From: an uncultured bacterium
GTDB taxonomy: Bacteria; Patescibacteriota; Gracilibacteria; Absconditabacterales; Absconditicoccaceae
Assembly (NCBI GenBank): GCA_947168815.1
Contig: CAMVNG010000011.1
Span: 1 to 38,093 of the forward strand
Length of the DNA stretch: 38,093 nt
Direction of reading: 5' to 3'
Shown: positions 13,090-37,029 of the stretch, in pieces
How positions within the stretch are numbered: position 1 is the first letter of the stretch
Layout of the letters: each line of letters opens with the position of its first letter
The notes under the pieces: model-generated
Database searches by the model: none
What the model was told of the DNA's origin: nothing
The model's input: the letters and a program-made list of their open reading frames with translations, nothing else
Made by a program: the position numbers and the translations under genes

Positions 13090-15603
13090 ATGAAAATAAA
13101 AAGTCGGCTTTTTCTGATAGTTTTTTCTTTGTTTTTTGCTAATTTTGCAGATGCATTCACAGTAGATAAATATAATTTAGAATGAGATATTCTAAGTGAT
13201 TGAACTATTAATGTTCATGAGGATATTGCTGTTGATTTTAGTGATTGAGCGTTACATTGAATTGAAAGAATTCTTTCTAGAAAATATACGGTCTTAGATA
13301 CTATTTTTCAGGTTTTTTATGATAATATTAACGTTATTAATGATAATTTTACAACTTATAATGATTATTGGTGAGATACTATCGTTAGAATTTGAGATAA
13401 AGATATCTTATTAGATTGAAAACATTCTTATGATATTAATTATTCAACATATTGATTGATTAAGAGTTTCTCTTGAATGTGATATTCTGAACTTTATTGG
13501 AACGTTATTTGATATGAATGGGATGCACCTATTCATTCTCCTAAGATAATTATTAATTTACCAAAAGCTTACAGCTGATTTACTGATGAAGATTTTATTA
13601 TTAGTCTTTGATTTAATCAATATCATAATATTCATGAATTTCCATGAGAGTTTTCATGGGATGAAAATAAGATTTATATTAATTATACTTGAGTATTAAA
13701 TCCTTCTCAGTGAATAACTTTATCAGTTAGATTTCCTAAAGATTATTTTGAATTTGATCATGAAAAACAAGCAAGTCTTTTTTATGATTATACGCGTGCT
13801 TTTAAAATTCCTTTGGTTACACTTACTTGAGTTGTACATAAGAACTGATATATTGATTTTAATGAAACTTTTAATGTAGATTGGTATAAACCTGTTTATT
13901 ATTTTTGGTGAAAGCTTCCTTTTAGATTTAATACTGATTATAATCCTTATTTGATTTATTTAAGTGGATTACAAGTTAATTGAGTAAATATTAGTCATTC
14001 TAAATATGATATTAATAAATACGATCAGAGCTTTGATTTGAGAGATATTGCATCTTCTGGTGATGTTTCTATTGATTATACTATGTATTGATTAATTAGA
14101 AATTTCACATGAGAAGATGAGGAGTGGACAAATAAACTTTATCTTCCATTACCTTTATTTGAATTAGATCAAACTCCAGAAGATATTAATCTTGCTTTGC
14201 AGTTTCCAGAATCAGAATTTCCTAATGTTTGTTCTTGAATCTATAAAGAGGACATTGAATTCTTAGTATGATGAAATCCTTATACTATCGAAGAGTTTTA
14301 TGATAATTGATGAGAGCTCTGGTGTGAGAATAATACACTTTATTTAAAATGAAAATGAATTTTTGCGTGAAGTAGCGATTTTATTTGAGTTAGTCTGATT
14401 GATTTTTGATTTGAACTTGATGAAAAATTACTTGATGCATTAGGTAATTTATGAAATTGAGAATTCTATTTTAATGATGAAATTAATTGGCAATCTATTT
14501 TATTATTGCTTTGAACCATACTTACGACGTGATGATTAATGACTTTAATGAAGAGAAGATATAATCTTTATTGAAAGGATAAATTGAAATATATTGTTGA
14601 ATATTGAGCTCCAAAATGAATGGATGCTCCTGAAGCTTGAGCTCTTATTGATGATGTTATTAATTGAAAAGATATCACTGCTTTAATTTATCAGTGGGCT
14701 GCTGCATGATATATTAAAATATTAAAAAATCCTAAAGATGAAAAGAGGTTCTATATTAAAAAAATTAAATATTTACCTTTAAATTCTAAGGAATATCAGT
14801 TAAAGTTTTTCAATAAGCTCTTTGAAAAAAATGATGAATTTTATTTTCCTTGAGCTATATCTTCATATTGAGAATATTCTGAATTTAAAAAAGTTATTTC
14901 TACTGCTAAGTCTTGATTAACGACTTATATTGATAGCCAGGATTGGTATAATACGAAATTAGATTCTGTGAAATCTGAAAAAAAGAGCTTTAAAAGTACG
15001 AATAAACATCTTGTTTGATGGACTGCTTTCTTGTCTGTAATTTTTTTCAATATCTTTGTTGCTACTATTAATTCATACTTGAAACCTGTTTGGACTTGAA
15101 ATATTTTATTCTGATTTATTTGATTTATTCTTATTCTTAATTCATATAGATTTAAAGAAAAGAACGTTTATACAGAGAAGGGTGATGAGCTATTAAAACA
15201 GATTAAATGATATAAAGATTTCTTAAAGAAGGTTGATAAAGATAAGTTTAAAGTACTTACAGATGAAGATCCTTTGTTTGTCGAGAAAGCTTTACCTTAT
15301 GCTGTTGTCTTCTGACTTGATACTAAATTTATTAAATATATTACTCCTGAGGATGTTCAATGGCTAGGTTGAGATATTGATGTATTAGAAGATTCTTTGT
15401 CTTATATTTCAGAAGCTGTTAATACGTACTGAGTTGCTCCTTATTATTATTCTCCTTATTCAAGTAGTTCTTCTAGTTCTTGGAGCTCAGGTTCATCATA
15501 TAGTTCTTATAGTTCTTCTTCATGATATAGCTCTGGATCATCATTTGGAGGATGACATTCTAGTTGATGAGGTTGATGAGGATGAGGTGGTAGATGATGG
15601 TAA
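13090..15603 (+). CDS. DUF2207-type membrane protein with a Ser/Gly-rich tail, 837 aa
   Basis: ATG at 13090, TAA at 15601-15603, more than 70 in-frame TGA read as Gly. Order: signal peptide (1-22), a large extracytoplasmic beta-rich region beginning in DUF2207 style (LSDGTINVHEDIAVDFSDGALHGIERIL), a TM at about 470-490, a cytoplasmic region, two TMs near 640-680, a cytoplasmic domain and a low-complexity tail from about 785 that is first Ser/Tyr and then almost pure Gly (GGHSSGGGGGGGGRGW). That order and the Gly-rich end are typical of DUF2207 (YciQ-like) proteins. The function is unknown in all bacteria. Six of the ten or so tail glycines are TGA. Confidence 0.87.
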
Positions 15604-15620
15604 AATATTATTTAATATAA

Positions 15621-15655
15621 AAAGCATTGGGAATTTAGATCTCAATGCTTTTATT
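15621..15655. terminator. Terminator between DUF2207 and budA-like genes
   Basis: A 12-bp stem with one mismatch (15621-15632 with 15640-15651) and a T-run on the plus side; the A-run to its left makes it partly bidirectional for the converging gene. Confidence 0.85.
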
Positions 15656-15674
15656 TTTATAAGAAATTAATTTA

Positions 15675-16469
15675 TTATTTTCCTTGTTCTACTTCTTTAA
15701 TGTCGTCTTCTTGATTAACTGTTAAATCAAGTGATTTGAAGAATTTTCATTCTGGTAAATGAAGTTTGAAGTTATCTGTAAAATCCCATGTTACTGTTCC
15801 TTCATCAAAGCTTAGGTTTAATACATGTCATCCTTCAGTTTTATCATTTGTTATGAAGTGGAAATGCCATCCAGCAGCATTTAAATCACCCATATAGTCA
15901 GGTGTATATAATGCAACAACAGTTCCTTCTACATTAGTTAGTTTTTTCTCTGTTTGGTCTACTCTCAATACATCTACTAATGGTTTATATGGTTCTTCTT
16001 GTTTTCTTTCACTTCTAATATGCATTTCATCAAAGTTTCATGAAAGAGTTATGAAGTAGAATCTATTGTTTCAAAGTTCTTCTATTTCTCTATCTAATTC
16101 AGCTTTAAGTTCTTGAATATCTCTAATGTGTTTTATTTGATATTTAAGGTCGTTATCAAAGAATGTTACATTTGCGAATGGAATTAATTCATCATCTGAA
16201 GGAATCTCAATTGATAAATCTTCGTTAGCTCTATAGATTGTTCCATTAAGCATAATCAATTCTCAATTTAATCCATCGAATGTTCCTAGACCTGTGTCTC
16301 CTAATTTTTTAACTTCTTTAATTGGTTTAGATCCATAATAGTCTCCTAAGGTTAGACCTTGAAGTAATGAAATCTGATTTAGTGTTTCATTGTCGCTAAC
16401 TTTACAGTTACACCCTGTCAATACTAAGCTGGCAATTACTAGAGTTGTTAAGAGTCCAAGTTTTTTCAT
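15675..16469 (-). CDS. budA: Acetolactate decarboxylase, predicted lipoprotein, 264 aa
   Basis: ATG at 16469, TAA at 15675-15677, TGA as Gly; under the standard code this splits into three separate frames. Family motifs run in order: LLQGLTLGDYYG (about 34), GLGTFDGLNGELIMLNGTIY (about 60-80), IPFANVTFF, VEGTVVALYTPDYMGDLNAAGWHFHFI and GGHVLNLSF. The His-x-His and the later His are the family's zinc ligands. The enzyme turns acetolactate into acetoin. A strong lipobox (LVLTGC) places the enzyme outside the cytoplasm; secreted forms are known in some Firmicutes. No acetolactate synthase or butanediol dehydrogenase is nearby. Confidence 0.9.
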
Positions 16470-16616
16470 TTCTCATAAAAAATATAAAACTTTTTTGAAA
16501 GTCTATGGATTTTATTTTTATTTTCAAAAGATAATGTTTTCTTATATCTTATTGAAATTTGTATTTGTAATGCTTATATTTATTTCAATATTAACAAATA
16601 CAAAAAAGGAGTTATT

Positions 16617-16799
16617 ATGCAAAAAGATCGTCAATTTAATTGTAATCCAAATCAGGATCGAAGCGAACAAGATAGAAATATCGAGGAAGCTTATAAGGAG
16701 GCCAAGGAACGTACTATTCGTCAGCTTATTGCTATGATATTAGCGTTAATAGTCTCGGCAGTTATTTATGCTACCATACAGTATTTTAGGATGCATTAA
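16617..16799 (+). CDS. Small tail-anchored membrane protein, 60 aa
   Basis: ATG at 16617 has a good Shine-Dalgarno (AAAGGAG, 16605-16611), unlike most recoded genes here. The promoter is TTGAAA, 17 nt, TATATT. The first 35 residues are highly charged (MQKDRQFNCNPNQDRSEQDR onward) and the last 25 form a TM helix (LIAMILALIVSAVIYATI). There is no glycine at all, so the recoding does not affect it. It ends in TAA and is followed by its own terminator. Function unknown. Confidence 0.8.
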   Translation: MQKDRQFNCNPNQDRSEQDRNIEEAYKEAKERTIRQLIAMILALIVSAVIYATIQYFRMH

Positions 16800-16816
16800 T
16801 TTGTACTTTTAAAAAG

Positions 16817-16845
16817 AGGTAATCAGATTTCTGGTTACCTTTTTA
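16817..16845 (+). terminator. Terminator of the 60-aa gene
   Basis: A 10-bp stem AGGTAATCAG/CTGGTTACCT (one mismatch or wobble) with a 4-nt loop, then T5. Confidence 0.85.
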
Positions 16846-16861
16846 TGTTTATTCTTTGTCA

Positions 16862-18508
16862 CTATTTTTCTTCACAAAATACTTTCTGAACGAGAGTAAA
16901 ACTTTTATCTAATCATTCATTAATATTAAGTTTTTTCTCCCAGCTCCATGAATTATCTTTTTTATTATATCAGTCTCTTAATAAGATATAGTCAACTCAA
17001 TGTAAAAAAGTGTAGGTATTGTGTGCAAAAGCATTTCTTATGTGTTCTTCATCTGTAATTTTTTTTCAATTTAATTCATTTTCTGTACTTAAATTTTCTT
17101 TTTTCTCAATCTCTAATAATTTATTAAGAGGAATGTTTGCGTAAATCATTCTCATGAGCTGTATTCTTATTCGAGTTGGAAATCATTCTATATCATAACG
17201 AGTAGTTCTTCATGTGTCAAGTACTGTATTGATGAAGTGAGCCCACATAGGTCCTCAGAATTTTTGATCTCATTTTGTAAATGTGCTTGTTCTTATATCA
17301 TATTTAAATCATGCGTCATGAAACTTTTTTTGAATAAAATCGACTATTCATTTTTTATGCCATAATAGTGGTTGTCAGTTTTTTTGCTTCATTTTAGGTA
17401 ATGATGTTGCAATGGATTCTAATATTTTATCTATTTCTGGCGTGGGTTTATATCTGCTGTTTATAATTCATAATGAGAAAGAAAAATCTATGTGTTTAAA
17501 AATATCATCTATTAAATCTTGATATATTTTATCTTCATTATTTAAATTTCATAAAAAGCAGATCATTCAGAAATTTGGCATATCTGAATGATTATGATCA
17601 ATTAAATTACTTGCAACATAATGTGTATTACCTGTATCAACTTGATGTGTAGCAAAGAAATCTGATAACATTTGGCATTGGTTATCAGTTAGTTCAAGAT
17701 TAATTTTTTCAAATTCTTTGTCACTTTCTAAATCCATTTTACTAAACCGTTCTGAAATTTCAGAAATATTATCTGTTGTCGTTACAAAAGGATATTTTGA
17801 GCTATCCCTTTTCATAGTATGCCAAAATTTGAATATTTTTCTTACTTCGTCTTTGCTTATATTAGTTGATCTTAGTGCTCATTCATCAAATTCTCAGTAA
17901 TATTCACTGATTCTTCTATCATATTTGCTTTGAGCTAAGATAAAGTCAATCAGAAATCAGATGTCTGCTATTGCTTTAAAATTTATTGCGTGTTTTGGAG
18001 GATTTGCTGGATTGTCTATAAAAATATATCAATTATCTGTTGGTATACATCTTGCATGTTCTATTGCATTTCTAATTTCTTCAAAGATTTCAATTTTAGT
18101 TAGATTTGATGGTGCTTCAATTATGTGTAACTTATTCATATTTACATCTTTTAAATCTTGTTCAATAATAGTCCTATTTGATTTTCTTTTTCATAAACTT
18201 GCTTCTTTACATCACGCGAATAGATAGGGTAATAGGTCACCGAATGGAATATCATCTCATTTAAAACATGTTTTAACCTTTTTCTTTCAGCGATAGAAAA
18301 TTTCTAAGTTATCTATTCAATTACATGTTTTCACTATTCCATCTAGTAATAGTTTTGAACGATTATCTTTAAGTACCTCAAAAATTTTCTCTTTAACTTC
18401 ATTAGAGTATTCTTCAATAGGTGTTTCTCTATTATCCAAAAATGAAAAATCTAGTCTATTTAGACATTCATAAACTGAATTATTTATTTCATTTTTTTCG
18501 ATTCACAT
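16862..18508 (-). CDS. Predicted dual-HEPN protein, candidate RNase of a defence or stress system, 548 aa
   Basis: ATG at 18508 (second codon is TGA=Gly), TAG at 16862-16864, with more than 20 in-frame TGA read as Gly. Two copies of the HEPN catalytic motif R-x4-H are visible in helical context: EEIRNAIEHARC (R146-H151) and HIRNAFAHNTY (R491-H496). In HEPN RNases this Arg and His cut RNA; two such motifs in one chain occur in Cas13, while Abi-type proteins usually have one. The protein is shorter than Cas13, and no CRISPR repeat or other cas gene is visible. The middle 340 residues are not recognised. Its promoter (TTGATT, 17 nt, TAAAAT, 18537-18565) diverges from the next small gene. The RNase role is inference from the motifs. 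Confidence 0.7.
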
Positions 18509-18536
18509 TGTATGTATTTACATAAATTTCGTCTTC

Positions 18537-18565
18537 ATTTTATGAAAATGATAGGTTAAAATCAA
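18537..18565 (-). promoter_or_regulatory. Promoter of the dual-HEPN gene
   Basis: On the minus strand, TTGATT (18560-18565), 17 nt, TAAAAT (18537-18542), 28 nt upstream of the start codon. Confidence 0.6.
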
Positions 18566-18594
18566 TTTTTATTGACATTTTTTAAAATTATTTA

Positions 18595-18622
18595 TTGAAT
18601 TTTTAATCGTTTATCTTATAAC
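18595..18622 (+). promoter_or_regulatory. Promoter of the 104-aa gene
   Basis: TTGAAT (18595-18600), 16 nt, TATAAC (18617-18622). It diverges from the HEPN promoter across about 30 bp. Confidence 0.7.
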
Positions 18623-18654
18623 TTTGTTAAGTAAACTAAAATAAAGGGTATCTT

Positions 18655-18969
18655 ATGAAGAAAAAGTATTTAATTAGATTTTGGACAGGTTTTCCTTCTT
18701 TTGAGGAAACTAAGGAAAAGAATGGTAAGTATGTGACTGTAAAGCTTACTCCGAGAGAGGAGATTGGCGTTGATAACCAAACATTTAGTCTCTTTAAAGA
18801 TGGCGTTATTCATATCAGCTGTGTCGATTACGAGATAATCGGTGCTGAATCTTCTAGCTGGTGGTATAAGGCTTTTGAGCTTATCTTCGAAGGAACATTA
18901 CTTTCCGTTGCTCATGCTGAGGATATAGAGAATATCCGATTCAGCTTCCCAATGCCTGTTGAAGAGTAA
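18655..18969 (+). CDS. Small protein using only GGN for Gly, 104 aa, family shared with 24219-24515
   Basis: ATG at 18655 with Shine-Dalgarno AAAGGG (18643-18648), TAA stop. It has own promoter and terminator, so it is a complete single-gene unit. All six glycines are GGN and no TGA occurs, while neighbours use TGA for most glycines. It aligns by eye with the 98-aa protein at 24219-24515: KK(Y/F)xxRF, a K-rich strand, EIG(V/I), an I-C/S-YE(I/V)I segment and SS-W. Probably a soluble beta-rich protein. Function unknown. Confidence 0.85.
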   Translation: MKKKYLIRFWTGFPSFEETKEKNGKYVTVKLTPREEIGVDNQTFSLFKDGVIHISCVDYEIIGAESSSWWYKAFELIFEGTLLSVAHAEDIENIRFSFPMPVEE

Positions 18970-18987
18970 TTATCTATCGTCGTTTAA

Positions 18988-19017
18988 AGGAGCTTTGTAA
19001 TCTTAAGCTCCTTTTTT
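18988..19017 (+). terminator. Terminator of the 104-aa gene
   Basis: Stem AGGAGCTT/AAGCTCCT (18988-18995, 19005-19012) with a 9-nt loop and T6. Confidence 0.9.
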
Positions 19018-19091
19018 CATTTTTATTGAAATTGTATTGTTGAATTATATAGTTTATTTATTAAACAAAAATTAATAGAAAGGTTTAAGTT

Positions 19092-19454
19092 ATGGATAAG
19101 AAAAAATTTTTAATGGAAGTTAAAATCTATTACAAAGGTTTGCTTTCAAAAGAGAATGACATTGGTCATCTTACTCTTGAACTCTTAATTGATAAGAAGT
19201 TAATTAAAGATCCAAGTTCATTTGTCCTTGTAGAAACTTCAAATTCTTATGAGGTTGAGGGAGAAAGAGATACTATTCCTGTAGGTATCGTTAAACTTAA
19301 TTGCATTGTCTCTAAAGTTGTTAAGTCTGAGAACATTCAGAGTCGTTATGATGCAAGCTTCAATTACAGGTTGGATAATGGCGTAGCGACATTTAGAACG
19401 AAAGGTCTTAATGTCTTTGTTCAGTATGGCATGCCTATTCCAGTAGAAGCATAG
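19092..19454 (+). CDS. Small protein using only GGN for Gly, 120 aa
   Basis: ATG at 19092 with Shine-Dalgarno GAAAGG, TAG stop. Promoter TTGAAA (19026-19031), 16 nt, TATAGT. All seven glycines are GGN. Length, start (MDKKKFL), internal spacing and C-terminus (YGMPIPVEA, compare FPMPVEE of the preceding gene) suggest a distant relation to the 104-aa protein. Function unknown. Confidence 0.83.
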   Translation: MDKKKFLMEVKIYYKGLLSKENDIGHLTLELLIDKKLIKDPSSFVLVETSNSYEVEGERDTIPVGIVKLNCIVSKVVKSENIQSRYDASFNYRLDNGVATFRTKGLNVFVQYGMPIPVEA

Positions 19455-19474
19455 TTTATTCTCTATTAAGATCT

Positions 19475-19506
19475 AAGGAGCTTAGATTTCTGGCTCCTTT
19501 TCTTTT
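19475..19506 (+). terminator. Terminator of the 120-aa gene
   Basis: Stem AAGGAGC/GCTCCTT (19475-19481, 19493-19499) and a T-rich tail. The stem sequence nearly repeats that of the preceding gene's terminator, which supports duplication of the whole gene cassette. Confidence 0.85.
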
Positions 19507-19509
19507 ATA

Positions 19510-19538
19510 TTGAATTTAGAATCTTGAATATTTATAAT
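19510..19538 (+). promoter_or_regulatory. Promoter of the 82-aa gene
   Basis: TTGAAT (19510-19515), 17 nt, TATAAT (19533-19538). Confidence 0.75.
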
Positions 19539-19577
19539 GTTATTGTTAAACAAATAAACCAAGAGAAAGGATAATTT

Positions 19578-19826
19578 ATGGATGAATTAAAAGTTACTAA
19601 GGATTTAAGGGAAGAGGTCCTCAAACATTGTGACTCTTTCGATTATTGTGGACGTAATTTAGCTTATTTCTCGTCTAAGAATAAACGCAATATTACGTTT
19701 GCAATTGCTGCTGTTTTAAAAGCTAATCCAGTATTTGTAGTCTCTGTAATGGAGACAACAAAGGGTGAGGACTCTAAGTTAGAAACGACGGTTCAATTTA
19801 CACAAGTTGGATTTACAGGCGGATAA
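19578..19826 (+). CDS. Small protein using only GGN for Gly, 82 aa
   Basis: ATG at 19578, Shine-Dalgarno GAAAGGA, TAA stop. Five glycines, all GGN. The N-terminal half is probably helical (LREEVLKHCDSFDYC), then a hydrophobic stretch (FAIAAVLKANPVFVVSVM) and a Thr-rich beta end (TTVQFTQVGFTGG). The final Gly-Gly codons and the stop lie inside the terminator hairpin (GGCGGA-TAATT-TCCGCC, 19818-19834, then T6), so gene end and terminator are fused. Third in a row of single-gene cassettes. Function unknown. Confidence 0.8.
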   Translation: MDELKVTKDLREEVLKHCDSFDYCGRNLAYFSSKNKRNITFAIAAVLKANPVFVVSVMETTKGEDSKLETTVQFTQVGFTGG

Positions 19827-19840
19827 TTTCCGCCTTTTTT
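19818..19840 (+). terminator. Terminator overlapping the end of the 82-aa gene
   Basis: GGCGGA/TCCGCC 6-bp GC-rich stem whose loop holds the TAA stop codon, followed by T6. Confidence 0.9.
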
Positions 19841-19865
19841 ATATGAGAAAATATACTTAATATTT

Positions 19866-20753
19866 TTAATCTACATTAATTAGTTCATATTTAGTTGATC
19901 ATAATCATAAGCTTTCAGAATATTCTGTAATATGTCTTCATTCTCTTCAATCAATTCTTTCTTTTAGTGCTTGAGTTCCTTCTTCGTGTGTTGCCCATAT
20001 TGCGTCAATAAATGCTTGATCGTTAGCAACAGGATCTAAACTAGCAAAAATTCAGATATCTGCTATTACTGGATTTCCTTGATGAGCGTCACAATCACAT
20101 TCTAAACTTATAGCATTAGCAACAATGATATAAACGATTGGCTTATTATTTTCTTTTAGATAATCGGCCACAGCAGTTGCTGCTTCTCACATTGATTCAA
20201 TAAAATCTGCTTTTTCAAATTTAGCATTCCAACATTCAACTGGGTCTTCAGTCTGTCAACATGAGTGGATATAAGCTTTTCAATTACGTGAAGCTATTCA
20301 AATTGATTGATTTTTAAGGTTTGCTCAGAATCCTCACATCATATGTCATTTTCAGTGAGCTAGATTTAAGATACTATCATAATTTTTAAAATTTTCTCAA
20401 ATGATATCATATTTTAATCGTTTTCATTTCTTTACCGGAATTTTAAATTCTCATTCAGCATCCATAATGTCGACATCAGCAAAAGATGTGAATCAGTGTT
20501 CTTCTGCTACTTTCATGTGTTCTTCAGCATCGTTTCTTGCTCATGGATAGGCTATATTACATTCAATAATTGTTCAGTTTAATTTCTTTACTAGTGGAGC
20601 AATTAAATCTGCTTTTAAATATCATTTTGATCATCTTTCTCATGTAGAAACTTTTACTCATACTTTTCATTTTAGTTCAACTCATAAAATCTCATACATT
20701 TTAATAAGCGATTCTGGTGTAATTTCTTTTGTGAAATAGACTTTTGATGCCAT
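19866..20753 (-). CDS. DUF362 protein (uncharacterised Fe-S centre family), 295 aa
   Basis: ATG at 20753, TAA at 19866-19868, TGA as Gly. It matches DUF362: KVYFTKEITPESL start, GVKVSTGERGSKGYL, IIECNIAYPGARNDAEEH, LAHGKGHMMGGFGANLKNQSIG and a Cys-containing part (SLECDCDAH). Most of the diagnostic glycines (GHMMGGFGANLKN) are TGA. The family is often fused to ferredoxin domains and thought to bind an Fe-S cluster; here I see no ferredoxin CxxCxxC module, only a few Cys. Role unknown. Confidence 0.85.
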
Positions 20754-20932
20754 GAGAATAGTGATTAGTAAATAAAATATGATTACTAATATAAAAATGT
20801 TATGATTAAGTCTAATAATTGCAAACAAAAATTACTTGTAATTTAAGATTTGAATAATTATCTTTTATAAAAATAAAAATGGGTTAATCAATGAAGCCTA
20901 AGATTCATTGAATAAAAAATACAAAAAGCAAT

Positions 20933-23868: not shown

Positions 23869-24144
23869 ATGGAGCTGATTTGTTTTAAAATTCAAAATGA
23901 TGGGGTAGAGGGGTTCGAGAGACAAGACTCTACTATTGACTTGGTTGTTAATCAGATTGGAGAGGAATCAATGACTGTTAGCAGTAGGAAAGTTGTCTTT
24001 CATAACTGCACCATTCGGAACCTCGATACCTTGAGTGACAATTACAACACTTACTTTTCAGTCTATGATAGTTTAGATTCTAAGAGTGTTGTAGTTGAAT
24101 CAAACAAGTATGATTTGATTAAGGTGACCAGGAAAATCGATTAA
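23869..24144 (+). CDS. Small protein using only GGN for Gly, 91 aa
   Basis: ATG at 23869 with Shine-Dalgarno GAAAGGA, TAA stop. Own promoter and terminator. Its three glycines are GGN (two GGG, rare in recoded genes here), with CGG, AGG and CTC codons also richer than in the neighbours. Probably a soluble beta-strand protein (ESMTVSSRKVVFHNCTI). Same cassette style as the 18655-19826 genes. Function unknown. Confidence 0.82.
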   Translation: MELICFKIQNDGVEGFERQDSTIDLVVNQIGEESMTVSSRKVVFHNCTIRNLDTLSDNYNTYFSVYDSLDSKSVVVESNKYDLIKVTRKID

Positions 24145-24218: not shown

Positions 24219-24515
24219 TTAGTCATAGATACATTCTGGCATGTTTAGATATACATCACCATACCCACTACTTACATTAAGCTTCCCAGCTTCTGTAACA
24301 TTGATGTTGAAAATGTTGTTCCAATCCGGAGATGAGGCATTACTTATAACCTCGTAGCTTTCAATAAAGATATTCAAGCAATTGTTCTCCATAAAAAATG
24401 CACCATCAGGAATACCAATCTCTTTCCACCTCGTTGGATTGATCTTAAGTGTGAGAATCTTTCGATTACCACTCTTAAATTCAATTCTAAATCTCAAAAT
24501 AAACTTCTTATTCAT
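24219..24515 (-). CDS. Small protein using only GGN for Gly, 98 aa, paralogue of 18655-18969
   Basis: ATG at 24515, TAA at 24219-24221. Promoter TTGAAA (24582-24587), 17 nt, TATAAC (24559-24564). All six glycines are GGN. It shares with the 104-aa protein the pattern KKFILRF, LTLKINP, KEIG, IESYEVISNASS-W. The start has no evident Shine-Dalgarno, unlike its relatives on the plus strand. Convergent with the 91-aa gene. Function unknown. Confidence 0.8.
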   Translation of the reverse strand: MNKKFILRFRIEFKSGNRKILTLKINPTRWKEIGIPDGAFFMENNCLNIFIESYEVISNASSPDWNNIFNINVTEAGKLNVSSGYGDVYLNMPECIYD

Positions 24516-25104: not shown

Positions 25105-25213
25105 AAAAAAACTGACTCTACTTATCTCAAGCAGAGCCAGCGATGTTGAATTTCACTTTAACGGCTAATTTACTTAGCACTATTTTTATACTGATTTCTA
25201 GTTTTTATTTCAA
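25105..25213 (-). ncRNA. Small RNA unit E1 (TTGAGATAA-loop family), RNA about 25178-25105
   Basis: Promoter TTGAAA (25208-25213), 17 nt, TATAAA (25185-25190), 6 nt after the stop of the paralogue gene. A GCTAA/TTAGC hairpin lies near the 5' end. The terminator (25112-25140) is a 12-bp stem with G-U pairs, loop TTGAGATAA, then T-run. The stem is identical to E4 and differs from E3 by one base. Confidence 0.82.
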
Positions 25214-25218
25214 TTAAT

Positions 25219-25968
25219 TTATTCGTTTACTTTTAGAAGTAGTTTTCATTTACAATCATTATCTACACAATAGATAAATGCTGATAAACCAAATTGACAG
25301 TCCCACCGAACGCGAGATTTTTCCTTTCAATCAACATTTTTATCTTTTAACCAAAAGGTATCATCTAATCATAAAATTGATTTTAAAGCCTTTCATATTT
25401 TACATTTCTCTTTTTGAGTTTCCCAGTATTTTAATTCTTTCTCATAATCCATACCACAATCTTCATGTAAATCTGATTCTTCTATAAATTTTCTAAGAGC
25501 GTCCATTAATTCACAGATTTCTTTTAGTGTGTATGATTGTTTTTCGAATTTTGATTCTTTCTTAAATAGTGGTATTTTTTCAAAGGTTCCTTTAGTTATA
25601 GTATCATTTGAAACAAAATAAGAAAATTTAAATCATTTAAAATCTCATACTTTAGGTAAATCAAGTGTTACTATTTTCCCTTTAACTCAGAACATTTCTT
25701 GATTATTAATTGTTCTTACATTGTATTCTCTTATATCTCTTATTATTTGTTCTTCTTGCATTTTAATTCTTTTTTCCATTTTAGCTCATATTTCTTTTCT
25801 CCATTTTTCTTTCTTTTCTTTTATTTTAGCCTCAATTTCATCACTAATATTACCAATTTCTTCATTTGATACTGAATTTAAATTTTCTAGTAATTCTTGA
25901 GATTTTAATTTTTTTCAATCTCATTTCTTTCCTATTATTATGTGTTGTGAAGTATTAATCGATTTCAT
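25219..25968 (-). CDS. Paralogue C of a three-gene family of unknown function, 249 aa
   Basis: ATG at 25968, TAA at 25219-25221, TGA as Gly. The first 40 residues (INTSQHIIIGKKGDGKKLKSQELLENLNSV) are shared with paralogues A and B; a charged helix follows (about 45-80), and the C-terminal part (LKSILGLDDTF ... KGKLLLKVNE) aligns with paralogue A (LKEILGLDSTY ... EGKLLIKRDD). The start overlaps the end of paralogue B by 14 bp, so the two are translationally coupled. Soluble, no known motif. Confidence 0.78.
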
Positions 25969-26740
25969 CGAGGATATTGTTGTCTAAAAGCTTAAATTTC
26001 TCTTGAAGTAATTCTTTAGATCTATTACCACTATCAAATAGTGAATCAGAGTATGAATGAAGTATGGTAACAGGCCAATCACGTAATGTGTTCTCAGACT
26101 CCCAATTGATATTTGAATCATCTATTCAATTAGGAGCGGCAACTTCATAAGTATCTAATTTATCATTATAATTAACATTAATTCAGATGATATATTTTCA
26201 TCTCACTCAGCTTGGATAATCAGTTCAATAATTAGAATGAATATATAGATACACTTTTCAATCTTTTTTTGGTAATATCGCTGTTGCAAGATCACATGGT
26301 CTAAGATTGTTTTTAGACATCAGAATTTTTTCTAATTCGTATCAGATTTCTTCACTATTTCATCTAAAACCATTAATTGTTTTATATATTCTCTTACAGA
26401 TCTTTCTATCTATTTCTTTGTGTAATTGTTTAAGACCTTCTGGAGATTTAGATAGCTTATCAAATCTTTCCATTATTTCATTTTCTTTATCTTCTATTTC
26501 TTCTTTTTCTTTTTGTATTCTTTTCTCTTCATTTTTTTGTGAGTGTTCTAAGTTTTGTTGTCTTAAAATTTCTTTCCTAGATTTATTTTCTTCTACTAAT
26601 ACTTCTAATTCACCTCAAACAGCTTTAATATCGTCTGTTGATACTGAATTTAAGTTTTCAAGTAATTCTTGAGATTTTGATCCAGTATCTCATTTCTTTG
26701 GTATTATAATGTGATGTAATGTATTAATATTTTTAACCAT
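25955..26740 (-). CDS. Paralogue B of a three-gene family, with long coiled coil, 261 aa
   Basis: ATG at 26740, TAA at 25955-25957, TGA as Gly. The N-terminus (INTLHHIIIPKKGDTGSKSQELLENLNSV) is shared with A and C. Residues about 45-95 are a strongly charged coiled coil (EEKRIQKEKEEIEDKENEIM). The C-terminal half (about 125-261) is specific and differs from A and C. A conserved N-terminal tag on different C-terminal parts suggests a shared docking or recruitment signal. E4 ends about 82 nt upstream. Confidence 0.78.
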
Positions 26741-26821: not shown

Positions 26822-26929
26822 AAAAAACTGACTCTACTTATCTCAAGCAGAGCCAGTCAAGCTTATGTCACTTAATAAATTTGCTGAAGACAGCGCTAAT
26901 ACTATAAAGATTTTACTTTTTATTTCCAA
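26822..26929 (-). ncRNA. Small RNA unit E4 (TTGAGATAA-loop family), RNA about 26894-26822
   Basis: Promoter TTGGAA (26924-26929), 17 nt, TATAGT (26901-26906), 5 nt after the stop of paralogue A. GCTG/CAGC hairpin near the 5' end; terminator 26828-26856 with the TTGAGATAA loop and five T. It lies between paralogues A and B. Confidence 0.82.
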
Positions 26930-26933
26930 TGTT

Positions 26934-27599
26934 TTAATCATCCCTTTTTATTAGTAATTTTCCTTCTTTTGTCCAGTCACACGTTTCATAATAGAAATTA
27001 TCTCATTCACAATTTAAACGTGTCCTGGTTTCACCATTAAAATTTGTTGATTTTGTTCGGTAGGTACTATCTAATCACAGGATTTCTTTTAGACATGTTA
27101 CTAGTACTTCTCATCAATTGTTCTCTTCACCGGATCTTGTATTTTCAAATTCAATTCAATATGCAATTAGAAAATCTCTAACAGCTCTATACATCTCTTG
27201 AAGTCCTCATTCTCATGTTATTCACCAAAGATTTTCTTTAATTAGTTCTGTACGATCTACTATCGCTTTTGCAAATAATGAATTTGAGATAAAAAATTTC
27301 GCGTTATATCCTTTGAATTCTCAAACTGCTGGTAGACTTAGTGTGATATTTTTTCATCTGCGTAATGCAAAAGATCATTCTTTTTCTTTGACATAATTAT
27401 CTTTTATATATTTTGTTATTTCATCTATATTTCAGTGCATATTTTCTCTTCTTTCATTATCTTTTTTTATTTCTTCTCAAATATTATCAATATCTTTGTC
27501 TGATACTGATTTTAAAACTTTCATTAATTCTTGAGATTTTGTATTATTATCTCATTTCTTACTGAGTATTATGTTCTGTGATGTACTAATTCTTTCCAT
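26934..27599 (-). CDS. Paralogue A of a three-gene family of unknown function, 221 aa
   Basis: ATG at 27599, TAA at 26934-26936, TGA as Gly. N-terminus ISTSQNIILSKKGDNNTKSQELMKVLKSV is the family tag. The middle (ITLSLPAVGEFKGYNAKFFISNSL) matches paralogue C (VTLDLPKVGDFKGFKFSYFVSN), and the C-terminus also aligns with C. Soluble. It lies 56 nt downstream of the 77-aa gene that follows the terminase, so it may belong to the same mobile element. Confidence 0.78.
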
Positions 27600-27655
27600 A
27601 TTTTTTCTAATATTAAACAAATTTATTATATTCATAAATTATTATTTCGCTATTT

Positions 27656-27901: not shown

Positions 27902-29248
27902 TTAAATAAAAAATATCTGAATTCTTTCGTCTTTTTTTAGCTCAAAATACATTCTCATGGCTATAGCATCTGCATAATCTGGAGATCTTCAAATGAGTTG
28001 TTTTATCTCTTCTTTGGTATTGATTTGTAATTTACCTCATTTATCAGGATTCTTTTGTTTTATTACATCGAGTTCTTCTATTATTGATTCTTTCTCATTA
28101 TCATTACTTATGATGATTTTTATTTTGTCTGAATTAATTATTTGTTCTAATTCAAAATAACATTGGTCTTTTAAATTTTTATAATTTCTTAGTTCTTTTT
28201 CTTTTTCGGATAAAAGAGGGGAGGCATTGTTTATAAATCATTTACATCATAGCTGATCTACTACTCATCATCAGACTCAGTCTTCATCACATACTGTATT
28301 TTCATTTGTTACTCAGTATTTTTGTTGTAATCATCTAATAATGTTGGCAGTTTCTTTTGTAGAGTTTTTTGTATAGCTAAACACTCTTGCTATTCGTCAA
28401 TTTCGAACAATACAAACTGTTTTATCATCTCAGAATCTTGCTATATCTGCTGTAATATATTTGTTTCAATATTCTCATTGATTCGTAAAAAGTTCTAGGA
28501 TTTTATCATATTGATAGAGTTTTGTTGGATTATCATCGTATTCTCGATTTCATTTTAGGAGTCTTTCTTTCGTTATTTTATCTGCTCTTTTGAGTGATTC
28601 TTTATATTTTTTATGATCTATAAAAGGGTTATCTGTGTATAATGATGGAATAAATATTCTGTCATATGGTAATTCATTATTATAATATGGTTTAATGAAA
28701 TCATTGTAGAGATGACATTTCATAGGATTACAAGTCATGATAACTTTTCATACTAAGTCGTATTCTTTGATTTTTTCTGTGCATCTTGAAAGAATTATGT
28801 CTATTGCTTTACGTGATACTTGTTGTGCTTCATCGACAAATCAATACGTTATTTCATATGATCATAACCAATTAAATTCTGGATCTGATGGTTGCTGTTT
28901 TAGTGGAACAAAAAGTATTTTCGAACCGTTATAATATTTTAATTCTTTTGTCTGAAGGTTTAAGGAATATTCTTTTCCTGAAGTCATTCAGTGTTTTGTA
29001 AGTACTTTTATTAATGTTGTTAATGTTGTCTTTCTTAGATCATCTCGTTCTTCTCTTCATATTAATCGTACAATTCAGCCTTTTTCTAAGCATGTCATAT
29101 TGATTATTTCGCATACTCATCGTGATTTTCATCAGCGTGCTCATCCTCAATATAAGATTTCTGTGATGTTTTTATCGTTAAAGCTCTTCCGTAGTTCCTG
29201 CTGTTTCTTCGTTAGTTGTACTATCAGTTGTTTCTCATCATGTGGCAT
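27902..29248 (-). CDS. terL: Phage terminase large subunit (isolated copy), 448 aa
   Basis: ATG at 29248 (inside the small-subunit gene, 71-nt overlap), TAA at 27902-27904, TGA as Gly. Walker A is ILYGGGARGGKSRG (about residues 30-43), with four of its glycines TGA; Walker B is YGFVDEAQ; then the shared MTCNPMKCHLYNDFI, and an RNase H-like nuclease with Asp in ITADIARFGDD, CDEDGVGGG and SPDYADAIA. All catalytic parts look intact. It packages phage DNA with the small subunit. It is closely similar to the second copy at 37444, yet no portal or head gene follows it here, so it is probably a prophage remnant or satellite gene. Confidence 0.9.
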
Positions 29249-29633
29249 CAACTATTTTTATTGAGCTAAATCAGATGTTGTTGTTTATTACAATATCTCA
29301 TTTTTTATCTTTAAAATCTTCGTCTTTTTTCTCTAATCGCCATGCAGCTGCTTTTCGATTTTTTCAGGTTAATCCTTGTTTTAAAATCGCTTTCTTACAT
29401 TCCATTAGATGGTATATTTTTGCTTTTTCTATTCTTGTTTTGAACTCTTCATATATTGGTCGGTTTTCTTTATTTTTTATATTTTGTTCGTAGTTCATTC
29501 GTTGACGAAATGTGTTATCTGATATTCATGTCAGTACACACGCTTGTTTTATGTTTGCTCATTCTTTAATCAGATTTTCTATTTCTTCTATTAATTCATA
29601 AGTAATTTTTCATTGTAGTTTGTTTCAATCCAT
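29178..29633 (-). CDS. Phage terminase small subunit, 151 aa
   Basis: ATG at 29633, TAA at 29178-29180, TGA as Gly. An N-terminal helix-turn-helix (IKEGANIKQACVLTGISDNTFRQRM, about residues 22-46) is typical of terminase small subunits, which recognise the packaging site. A helical middle and Thr/Glu-rich end follow. Its end overlaps the large subunit start, the classic arrangement. It is not obviously alike in sequence to the small subunit at 37032, while the large subunits are close. Confidence 0.75.
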
Positions 29634-30575: not shown

Positions 30576-31652
30576 ATGAAAATAGCTCAATTTATAAATC
30601 GAATTAAAATTAATAGACAGTTTGCTAAATCTACCGTTGATACGTATACCCGCACTTTAAAGCGTTTTAATGACTATATTATTAATGCTAGTTGATGAGC
30701 AAGATCTATTGAAGATACTTGTGATTTAAAAGTCTGGGATGTTGAGAGTTTTATAGGTTGAGAAAAGATAAACGGTAAATGAGCAAGGACCTGTAACAAT
30801 TATTTATCATGCATAAGAGACTTCATTTCATACGCTGAACGCAGCTGAGAAAAAGTCTTTAACTTCAAGGAAATTATCCTCATGAAGGAATCTAAAAGAA
30901 AAATTGATGCCTTATCTGAAGACGAAGTACAAAGACTTTTGGTCTTCATGAGGGGCGATAAAAATAAAGATGAACTTACTAGAACAAGAGACTTAGCCAT
31001 GGTTTCAATTCTTCTTTATACCTGACTAAGAGTCTCTGAACTTTGTAATATCAAAGTTGAAGATGTAAAAGAAGAACTGCAAATTATATGAAAAAATCAG
31101 ACGCTAAGACTTGTATATCTCTTTCGTGAACATATATGACTAATTAGACTTTATCTATATATGAGGTACGATAAGAAGATTGAATCTGATTATTTGTTTT
31201 GCTCACATGCTAATAATAGCAGGTGAAAACCTCTTTCCAGGAATACTGTTGAGTGAATTGTAAAGAATGCATGAAAGGATGCGTGACTAACTAATCCAGT
31301 TTGGCCGCATAAGCTCAGGCATACCTTCGCTACGTGTTTATTAAGAAGAGGTTGAAATATTTACTATATTAAAGAATTGCTAGGTCATCAGTACATTACC
31401 ACAACCCAAACTTATCTCTCTGCAACGAATACTGATCTAAAAAATACTCAAAGTTTACTATTAAACCAAAAGTTATCAGGCGATTTTTGAGGTAATGAAA
31501 GGTTAGTTCCTATGCCTGAAAACGTTATAATTAAAGATAAATCTTTATTTGATAGATTTAGAAATTCAGCTTCAGCAGTACCAAATCAAGAATATTTTTC
31601 AACTGGATTTGAAAGGGGAGTGTCTGCTTATTCTTGATGATGGCTAGGGTAG
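30576..31652 (+). CDS. Tyrosine recombinase/integrase 1, 358 aa
   Basis: ATG at 30576, TAG at 31650-31652, TGA as Gly. N-terminal SAM-like core-binding domain (about 1-95, STVDTYTRTLKRFNDYI), then the catalytic domain: Arg in [20 protein letters not shown] (His-x-x-Arg), LLGHQ (His) and TQTYL (Tyr). All required residues are present. It resembles XerC/D-type integrases of phages. It faces integrase 2 across 1.2 kb. Its stop codon lies inside an AGGGTAGT motif (31646-31653) that recurs in the region. A terminator follows at 31682-31710. Confidence 0.92.
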
Positions 31653-32852: not shown

Positions 32853-34190
32853 CTAAAATCATGATAATGAATTAACTGCTGATCCATACATCTGGTTCAT
32901 AGGATTATATTTCCAAATATTAAATAGGTTTGGTTTATTTTTAATAAATCATGCAATAGTTTGATATTCAGTATCAGGTAAATTGTTTGGATTGATTTCA
33001 AAATCTTGTAAATTTCATTGTGCATTTTTTAGTTCTTCTGATTCTAAGCTTAAATATGTTTGAGTTGTTAAAATTGATGAATGTCCCATTAATTCTTTTA
33101 TACTCATTAAATCTACATTCTTTTTAAGTAATTGCGTTGCAAAAGTATGCCTCAATTTATGAGGGAAAACGGGGGAGTTTAATCCAGCATCTTTTCATGC
33201 TTCTTTGACTACCCTTTCTACACTGTTTCTTGAAAGCTTCTTTCAAACTGAGTTTTTAGATAAACTTGTAAATACATATTCAGATTTGATACCTTTAGAT
33301 CTACATAATGTAATATAATCCCATAACATATTTAAATGCTTTTCAAATAAGTAAACATTTCTGTATTTTCTTCCCTTTCATTTTATAAGTAAGGCTTCTT
33401 TAATCCCATCTATTCTTAAGTTACATAATTCTGAGACTCTTATTCATGTGTATAGCATAATCATAACCATACAATAATCTCTAACTCTTTGTAGCATTGA
33501 TTTAGATTTATCACATCTCATATAATTAAGTAATACTCTACAATCAACTTCAGTTAAAGCATCAATCTTTTTCCTATCTTCTTTTGCATAGAAGAAATCT
33601 TTTGAATCAATTCATGCTCTTTGTCACTTAATTCAGCAGAATTTCAGAAATGTTTTTATTGCTGATATCTTATTATTACATGTTCTAGCACTAATTCACT
33701 CCTCTCTCAACTCCTCTACAAATCAATCAATATCATAAATAACAAGTTTTTCAGGACTATTGACTCCCCTTTCACCATGTGTTTTTCTTATGATAAAATT
33801 ATCAAGTTTGGTAATGGTTCTAACATAATTATCAACTGTGCATTGAGAAAAGTTTCTTGATAAGAGTAACCACCTGGAGAACTCCCCTATTATGTTACTT
33901 CAGACGCTATTTCATCAATTTACAGGTTCTGGACTTGTGTTTCTATTTGATAAACAAAAGTTTCCATCTCATCATTTCATAAAATTTTGATATCTTTTTA
34001 TAAGATTTTCTAGGCTATCGTTTATATCAAACTCTAATGCGTTATTAATGTTTAGTAAAGATAATTTCTTTAATCAATCTTGTATCTTTCAGGTAATTAA
34101 ATCCCCTACTTTATTAGCCAATGCTATTGTTCTTGGATCTACTCAAGGTATATTAGAATTTGTGAATAATAATGTCTCTTTATTTTTCAT
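32853..34190 (-). CDS. Tyrosine recombinase/integrase 2, 445 aa
   Basis: ATG at 34190, TAG at 32853-32855, TGA as Gly. About 100 extra N-terminal residues precede the core-binding domain ([17 protein letters not shown]); the catalytic domain has [26 protein letters not shown] and TQTYL. It is clearly homologous to integrase 1 ([12 protein letters not shown] versus SKRKIDALSEDE) but longer. The N-terminal extension could be an arm-binding domain, as in lambda-type integrases; that is inference. Five AGGGKAGT-type motifs lie within the gene (33171, 33208, 33773, 33891 and a weaker one near 34110). Confidence 0.92.
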
Positions 34191-34458
34191 CTTAAACAAA
34201 AATAGAATGTAAAGATTGAGCTCTTGGATCAAACTTTAAATTCTACTACGCCGATAACAAATATATATAAAGTCAACATTGAAATCAAGCAGAACTTCAG
34301 TATTTTAGTGTTTTGAGCTGGACAAAATTTAAAATTGCAGTATAGCAGTTTTTCTAAAACTTTAATTTCTACTATCCAGCATTGGTTAAAACAAAAAATT
34401 CTACTAAATCGCTGTTCTCATGCAGAGAAACTCAAAAATTTTTACGAGTAATGATAAT

Positions 34459-35407: not shown

Positions 35408-35968
35408 ATGAAAATTACCGAAGTAGACATTAATAAACTTATTCCTTATGAAAAAAACAATAAGGTTCATGAAGAAGATCAGATTACTCAAATTGCTAAT
35501 TCAATAAAGGAGTTTTGATTCACTCAACCAGTAGTTGTTGATGAAGATTTTTCTATCTTAGCAGGACATTGAAGATATTATGCTTCTCAACGTCTCTGAT
35601 TAGAAAAAATCCCATGTTATATCGTTGAATGATTAACTGCACTGCAAAAGAAAAAATACAGAATTCTGGACAATAAATTAAACGATAGTGACTGGGATTT
35701 AGCCAACTTAAAAAGTGAGTTAGAATCTTTAGATGATATGAATTTCTGAGAATTACAATATTCAAAATATGATATGTTCCCAGAATTAAATACTGAAGAG
35801 TTTAATCCAGATGATTATAAATCAAAAGAAGATTTGGATGATGAGGAAGATGATGATAGTGATTCAGAGACAGATTCAATGTTATCACTTACAGTATATG
35901 TAGATGATAAAGCTCAACTACAGATGTTAAAGAAAGACTTAGATGAATTAGGTTATCGTTATAGATAA
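35408..35968 (+). CDS. ParB-like nuclease domain protein, 186 aa
   Basis: ATG at 35408, TAA at 35966-35968, TGA as Gly. N-terminal ParB/Srx domain: DINKLIPYEKNNKVH, IANSIKEFGFTQPVVVDED, ILAGHGRYYASQRLGLEKIPCYIV. The GH-R motif is partly TGA-encoded. A long acidic stretch (about 140-160, DDEEDDDSDSETD) and a short C-terminal domain (LSLTVYVDDKAQLQMLKKDL) follow. Such proteins accompany methylases and terminases in phages. Confidence 0.87.
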
Positions 35969-35999
35969 TCAGAATTTTATATTTTTTTAATAATCCATC

Positions 36000-36158
36000 A
36001 TGAACACTTACGCAATAATGTATGAATATAAATGAACTATTTTTACTGAAGCTTTTCAAAGTAAAGAGAGATGTATTAATATGAAACTTCTTTATGAAAT
36101 CCAAAGAGAATTACCTGTGAAAGCTCATTTATTTAATATCTCACATATAGAAGGATAA
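36000..36158 (+). CDS. Small phage protein, 52 aa
   Basis: ATG at 36000, TAA at 36156-36158, one TGA=Gly. MNTYAIMYEYKGTIFTEAF start, then a mixed helix. It fills the gap between the ParB and methylase genes, 1 nt before the latter, so it is probably translated. Not recognised. Confidence 0.6.
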
Positions 36159-36159
36159 G

Positions 36160-37029
36160 ATGAAAGTATTATCTCTTTTTGATTGAATATCATGTTGATT
36201 AGTAGCTTTAAAGAGAATTTGAATAACTCCATCTTTTTACTATGCATCTGAAATAGATCCTTATGCTAAATATATAGCAAAAAAGAATAATCCTGAATTA
36301 ATTCATATTGGGAATGTAAAGAAAGTGAATGGTAAAGATTATGAATGAGTTGATTTACTTATCGGATGAAGTCCTTGTCAGTGATTTTCTTTTGCTGGTA
36401 AACAACTTAATTTCAATGACCATCGCTCTAAACTTTTCTTTGAATATGTAAGAATTCTAAAGGAGACAAAGCCTAAATACTTCTTATTAGAGAATGTTGT
36501 TATGAAGAAAGAATGGATAGATATTATCTCTCATGAATTAGGAGTTCAACCAATAGAAATAAATTCGAGTTTAGTATCAGCTCAAAATAGAAGAAGATTA
36601 TATTGGATATGAATGAGAAATAATAATAAATGATATGATCAGATTCCTATCACTCTTCCTAAAGATAAAGGATTAAAGATGAAAAATGTTATGCAACAAA
36701 TAGTAGATAAATCTTATTTTCTTTCTAAAGAAAAGATAGAGAGTATCAAACATTGGAGGTCGTATCAGAATCCTTTACGTTCTATTCTACTTCCTCAAAG
36801 TAAATCTCCTACACTTACTGCAAGAGGTGCATGAGAAGATCATAGTTGAATGATATTAGTTTGGGATAAATGAAGAATTAGGAAAATCACTCCTTTAGAA
36901 TGTGAAAGATTACAAACCTTACCTGATAATTATACTGCAGGAGTAGACAAGTCTCAAAGATATAAGATGTTATGAAATTGATGGACTGTAGATGTGATAG
37001 CTCATATTTTTAAATCAATTCTAAAATAA
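36160..37029 (+). CDS. C5 cytosine DNA methyltransferase, 289 aa
   Basis: ATG at 36160, TAA at 37027-37029, TGA as Gly. Motif I LSLFDGISCGLVAL, motif IV GGSPCQGFSFAG (catalytic Cys about residue 73), motif VI ENV, motif VIII QNRRRLYWIG, motif IX/X near LTARGAGEDHS and MLGNGWTVDVI. Short variable region, phage-like. No cognate restriction gene is nearby, so it probably protects phage DNA or marks it. TGA encodes the Gly of PCQG. Confidence 0.92.

Follow-up and report, generated by a model that had tools for sequence, protein, structure and literature searches.

Gene content and reading of the locus

In the 38,093-nt stretch of DNA considered here (the window), the minus strand at 16862..18508 holds an ORF of 548 aa, referred to as P0001, which runs from ATG to TAG and is open only under translation table 25, where UGA is read as glycine. 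The plus strand over the same positions is full of stops. TGA codes for 24 of the 28 glycines of P0001, as it does in the surrounding native genes, and base composition and codon use are the same as those of the native genes around it. On the strength of these three matches with its neighbours, P0001 is a real, host-adapted gene. It is monocistronic, with an alpha-acetolactate decarboxylase gene on one side and a DUF362 gene on the other. A strong hairpin with a T run at 16813..16844 (z −4.7 on the plus strand and −2.4 on the minus strand) is likely the terminator common to P0001 and a convergent 60-aa ORF. This small ORF (16617-16799), which has the terminator-like hairpin, contains no glycine codon.

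P0001 contains exactly two R-x4-H motifs, R146-NAIE-H151 (18056..18073, minus strand) and R491-NAFA-H496 (17021..17038, minus strand), separated by 345 residues. The initial annotation had described a 548-aa ORF with two such motifs at this spacing, and both translation and motif count bear this out, with the gene on the minus strand. HEPN RNases are recognised by R-x4-6H with a polar residue (N, D or H) after the arginine, placed where helix 3 of a four-helix bundle ends (PMC3710099). P0001 carries the signature of the superfamily twice, as RNAIEH and RNAFAH, the predicted active-site motifs of a first and a second HEPN region (HEPN1 and HEPN2). The N-terminal region is placed approximately at residues 52-202 (17903..18355, minus strand), with boundaries taken from the position of the motif in the Pfam pEK499_p136 model. 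The C-terminal region spans approximately residues 397-548 (16865..17320, minus strand), as indicated by a sub-threshold match to PF18736 and by the HEPN profile of two relatives described below. Between them, residues 203-396 or thereabouts (17321..17902, minus strand) form a linker that is a candidate sensor or trigger region.

Motifs of this length can arise by chance, and their frequency depends on how strictly they are defined. Composition-matched shuffles of P0001 contain a mean of 0.62 plain R-x4-H motifs, and 12% of them contain at least two (P about 0.12). Two or more copies of the strict form RN[AGST]xxH appear in 0.005% of the shuffles (about 5e-5). Two plain motifs are weak evidence by themselves; the strict motifs actually found in P0001 are not chance-like. 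A survey of 716 kb of the same genome (55% of its 1294 kb) took in 565 ORFs that do not overlap and have at least 120 aa, of which P0001 and one other protein, P0002, were the only ones with two R[NDH]xxxH motifs. Across 637 sampled genes the same pattern was confined to P0001, P0002 and a third protein, P0003.

Evidence for two HEPN regions in one chain

The C-terminal 130 residues of P0001 match PF18736 (HEPN pEK499_p136) at the motif with 16.4 bits (E 0.0075), below the curated Pfam cut-off of 26.6 bits. No HEPN family of Pfam is matched by the N-terminal half, and the two halves align with each other around the motif only (blastp E 0.017, in a single comparison). The N-terminal HEPN region is putative, deduced from its motif and from similarity to the relatives. 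No convincing domain match to the linker was found in Pfam, NCBIfam or PADLOC. AlphaFold run without homologues gave a pLDDT of 33 for the whole protein and 35 for residues 1-204, too low for a fold search. This low-confidence model puts each motif where a predicted helix ends, a placement that would be compatible with the HEPN position and says nothing further. P0001 is very divergent, and its single chain probably contains two RNA-cutting HEPN centres.

P0002 (527 aa, G000:C6:17614-19197) is encoded by the same genome and was found by the motif scan of its stretches, not by similarity. P0002 then led to P0003 (694 aa, G327:C14:3307-5391), from another genus of the same family. The motifs are RNGLAH at 176 and RNAFAH at 444 in P0002, and RNSIAH at 386 and RNALIH at 620 in P0003, which also has an extra N-terminal extension of ~280 residues. 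A second dual-motif protein in the same genome and a third in a related genus are both new here. Judged by their alignment (E 3.9e-8 over residues 154-400) and by the EAFI-PSFF and RPYVHNL segments common to both, P0002 and P0003 are homologous.

Both relatives approach known HEPN families in both of their motif regions. P0002 matches PF18736 over two stretches (E 4.5e-5, 23.7 bits, below the 26.6-bit cut-off). The C-terminal half of P0003 matches HEPN_LA2681 (E 0.001) and HepT-like (E 0.011) and its N-terminal half weakly matches RiboL-PSP HEPN (0.05) and pEK499_p136 (0.095), all below the curated cut-offs. These sub-threshold matches involve different HEPN families and coincide time after time with the predicted active-site regions. 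A HEPN profile was built with nothing but the two HEPN regions of P0002 and the two of P0003. In a search with this profile P0001 came out ahead of all other ORFs (E 1.2e-4), with both motif regions in order and scores of 4.8 bits for the N-terminal region and 17.4 bits for the C-terminal region. The next match was an RNase J (identified by reading) at E 6e-4, which we treat as chance and as a yardstick for how weak such E-values are. Because RNase J comes so high, the ranking of P0001 is supportive but is not proof. In a direct comparison of P0001 with the two relatives the similarity lay chiefly at the motifs (blastp E 0.005), with none that was significant beyond them, and descent of P0001 from the same fusion as P0002 and P0003 is no more than possible. 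With hhalign, the P0002/P0003 alignment was matched to P0001 in a stretch outside the HEPN regions only, and the HEPN regions themselves were not aligned.

HEPN RNases usually act as dimers, and P0001 might be a homodimer of single HEPN domains in which the C-terminal half alone is HEPN and the first motif is a coincidence or belongs to a degenerate bundle. This would account for the want of a family match for HEPN1 and for its low profile score. We consider it improbable, since the strict motif stands in both halves of P0001, at the shuffle frequency given above, and P0002 and P0003 are also dual-motif proteins with HEPN-family matches, some of them weak, in both regions. A functional pair of HEPN regions is favoured instead, because R-x4-H is present in both halves of all three proteins.

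No close relative of P0001 was detected in 353 genomes of the class, 287 genomes of the phylum, viral and genome contigs, phages or plasmids. Of the weak matches among the class genomes, those in L003 and L004 fell in a sensor-kinase-like ORF and in a non-HEPN ORF (both by reading) and were rejected. Profile searches of 118 relatives added no member beyond P0001, P0002 and P0003, with a single marginal match in genome G432, and for none of the three proteins was a relative detected in those of the phage, viral and PDB sets against which it was run. The best explanation is that the three form a small, fast-diverging dual-HEPN set in this UGA=Gly Gracilibacteria family, with at least one mobile member.

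Genomic context of the three genes

The mobile member is P0002. Its gene comes after the tail fibre, holin and endolysin genes of a prophage, 105 nt downstream of the last of these, a typical cargo position in the late-gene and lysis module of a prophage. P0003 is found among genes that by reading are non-phage, with an SPFH/stomatin-like gene upstream and a thymidine-kinase-like gene downstream. An ORF read as a Phd/YefM-like antitoxin lies elsewhere on the P0003 contig (G327:C14, L063), at 1911-2135 on the minus strand.

PADLOC returned no match for P0001 or its immediate neighbours, and no known defence partner of P0001 is present within the window. With metabolic-type genes on its flanks, the locus shows no obvious defence island. 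No empty site could be defined by synteny with sister genomes, where the genes flanking P0001 are not adjacent. These surroundings bear on whether P0001 could be an effector of a prophage or other element that serves the phage and not host defence, through host RNA shut-off or superinfection exclusion, and was domesticated at this locus. The position of P0002 speaks for such an origin, as do a terminase and two integrase genes of the window that lie 9-16 kb from P0001. However, P0003 is among non-phage genes and P0001 itself is flanked by metabolic genes, and we rate this reading as unlikely.

A second possibility raised by the immediate surroundings is that P0001 is the toxin of a toxin-antitoxin pair, held in check by an RNA, as AbiF is, or by a protein that a small gene nearby encodes, for example the divergent ORF at 18655-18969. 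HEPN toxins are commonly paired in this way (PMC3710099; PMC12373285), and this small gene has its own promoter region and lies 146 nt from P0001. On the other hand, P0001 has no same-strand partner gene beside it. Neither the abiF RNA motif (RF03085) nor any other Rfam family was found at 15600-20900 in a cmscan search with E up to 1, and the intergenic stretch upstream of P0001 folds no better than shuffles (z 0.4, −1.0). The small gene moreover belongs to a class of TGA-free genes spread over the whole genome, so that its adjacency is to be expected. Toxin-antitoxin pairing is an unlikely explanation.

The frequency of this class also bears on the statement of the initial annotation that the dual-HEPN gene lies next to small gene cassettes with standard glycine codons. 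The adjacency is real. It carries no evidential weight, with 65 of 691 sampled ORFs free of TGA and containing at least three GGN glycines, or about one per 11 kb genome-wide. Because the class is genome-wide, the presence of such genes beside P0001 tells nothing about P0001.

Comparison with CRISPR-associated and other HEPN systems

The gene had been described as a dual-HEPN protein without an array or cas genes, and this holds as far as tested. Apart from one protein-coding repeat (by reading), neither the window nor 803 kb of sequence from this and related genomes contained CRISPR-like spaced repeats. The 55% of the genome that was sampled showed no CRISPR array, a search of the complete genome gave no Cas1, and the window had no Rfam match. 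P0001 matches no PDB chain, solved Cas13s included, at E up to 5, and no Cas13 model of NCBIfam or PADLOC. Nothing connects P0001 with CRISPR or identifies it as a relative of Cas13.

Two HEPN active sites in one chain had also been called the hallmark of Cas13. This is too strong, because Csm6-2 and other clusters are dual-HEPN as well. Csm6-2, an ancillary RNase of type III CRISPR systems, has two HEPN modules in one polypeptide, as P0001 is proposed to have, in the order CARF1-HEPN1-CARF2-HEPN2 (PMC13187428). The two differ in that no CARF domain was detected in P0001 with Pfam or NCBIfam and the genome is without cas1. A structure-guided study of Cas13an from 2024 reported twelve clusters with intramolecular HEPN dimers, two of them beside arrays and the other ten uncharacterised (PMC12165695). 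P0001, P0002 and P0003 resemble the non-CRISPR clusters of that study in having two predicted HEPN regions per chain, and may fall within one of those ten.

Cas13 is thought to derive from the AbiD/F group of HEPN proteins. The suggestion that P0001 is related to Cas13 or its ancestors found no backing in PDB, PADLOC, Abi_2 or abiF RNA searches, and the HEPN families that the three proteins approach are not AbiD/F. AbiD/AbiF proteins (Abi_2) are HEPN RNases of abortive infection carried by prophages (PMC12373285). They have a single HEPN domain and act as homodimers with an antitoxin RNA; here neither the genome nor P0001 has an Abi_2 (PF07751) match, and an abiF RNA is likewise absent from the interval searched.

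These results leave it highly improbable that P0001 is a Cas13-like or Cas13-ancestral RNA-guided nuclease whose array was lost or never present. The likeness is one of layout, with two HEPN motifs far apart in one small chain, intramolecular pairing expected, and a length that falls inside the 429-577 aa reported for Cas13an, whose loci are likewise without other cas genes (PMC12165695). Against this, P0001 has neither an array nor detectable sequence similarity to Cas13, no structured RNA that could be a guide candidate was found beside the gene, and the HEPN halves of P0001-P0003 resemble pEK499_p136, LA2681 and HepT rather than AbiD/F.

One of the closest known systems is the pEK499_p136 family (PF18736), with which HEPN2 of P0001 and both regions of P0002 align at R-x4-H and in the segment after it. 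This family has been linked to defence operons, for example those of restriction-modification and Pgl systems (PMC3710099). Its model describes one domain of ~150 aa, whereas P0001 and P0002 would have two per chain, all of the matches fall below the cut-off, and no restriction-modification or Pgl genes adjoin P0001.

Proposed function

We propose that P0001 is a ribonuclease with two HEPN domains in a single chain, which acts in abortive infection or like a toxin and belongs to a small lineage-specific set, and we hold this reading to be somewhat favoured on balance. Most likely the members of the set are ribonucleases of a self-inhibitory or anti-phage kind that make up a small family with a Cas13-like layout. 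A defence or toxin function is deduced from the HEPN superfamily, the patchy distribution and divergence of the three proteins, and the prophage cargo position of P0002. Of the earlier proposal of a new abortive-infection or RNA-cleaving protein, what stands is a CRISPR-free dual-HEPN protein that is a probable RNase and plausibly acts in abortive infection, given the PF18736 match of P0001 and the same layout in P0002 and P0003; Cas13 ancestry is not supported.

As we envisage it, the two HEPN helical bundles of one P0001 molecule would pair to form one composite, metal-independent RNase site made of R146/H151 and R491/H496, as in Cas13 or Csm6-2. The linker of ~200 residues probably keeps P0001 inactive and senses what sets it off, for instance a product of a phage or damage to translation. 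On such a signal P0001 would cut cellular RNA (tRNA or mRNA) and growth would stop. An effector of this kind would work without a separate protein antitoxin, and at least one member of the set, P0002, appears to travel as late-gene cargo of a prophage. A bolder version, which we think quite unlikely, is that P0001-P0003 evolved independently as a family of single-chain dual-HEPN effectors confined to UGA=Gly Gracilibacteria and the phages of these bacteria, with a linker that directly senses phage nucleic acid or a guide. P0001 would then be a Cas13-like triggered RNase arising from pEK499-type rather than AbiF-type HEPNs.

Dual-HEPN chains are the hardest step to trace on the path toward Cas13, and to our knowledge those outside CRISPR have barely been described. 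If the HEPN halves are indeed pEK499_p136-, LA2681- or HepT-like and not of the AbiD/F type, pairing of HEPN domains within a single chain arose more than once. Standard-code gene finders fragment UGA=Gly genes, which may explain why such dual-HEPN genes have been missed. The CRISPR systems of Gracilibacteria in one survey were of types V-A and III-A and a single II-C1 (PMC10746230), and the proposed ribonuclease, if confirmed, would give these bacteria an extra type of effector.

Standard-glycine genes and phage-like genes of the window

In addition to the divergent gene at 18655-18969, the window contains TGA-free genes with GGN glycines at 19092-19454, 19578-19826, 23869-24144 and 24219-24515. 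Such small genes are also found in many other stretches of the genome (including L048, L053 and L054), and their GC and GC3 are mostly above those of native genes. A few of the 65 sampled TGA-free ORFs are ordinary housekeeping genes (ribosomal and histone-like proteins, by reading). Some belong to paralogous families, and the gene at 24219 has relatives on contigs C13 and C15 and in genomes G302 and G321. The class looks like the product of a continuing influx of, or selection for, genes compatible with the standard code.

The right part of the window appears to be a UGA=Gly prophage or its remnant. Genes for the small and large terminase subunits, two tyrosine integrases and a DNA methyltransferase (27902-29633, 30576-31652, 32853-34232 and 36160-37029) all contain in-frame TGA, and the methyltransferase-type genes at 35408-37029 are phage-like. 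Adjoining the terminase genes are three neighbouring genes (25219-25968, 25955-26740 and 26934-27635) with a common N-terminal segment, corresponding to direct repeats of 131 nt. An identical 35-nt repeat is present twice among them, at 25106-25140 and 26822-26856, and the third gene of the trio has a weak LmuB-like match in PADLOC.
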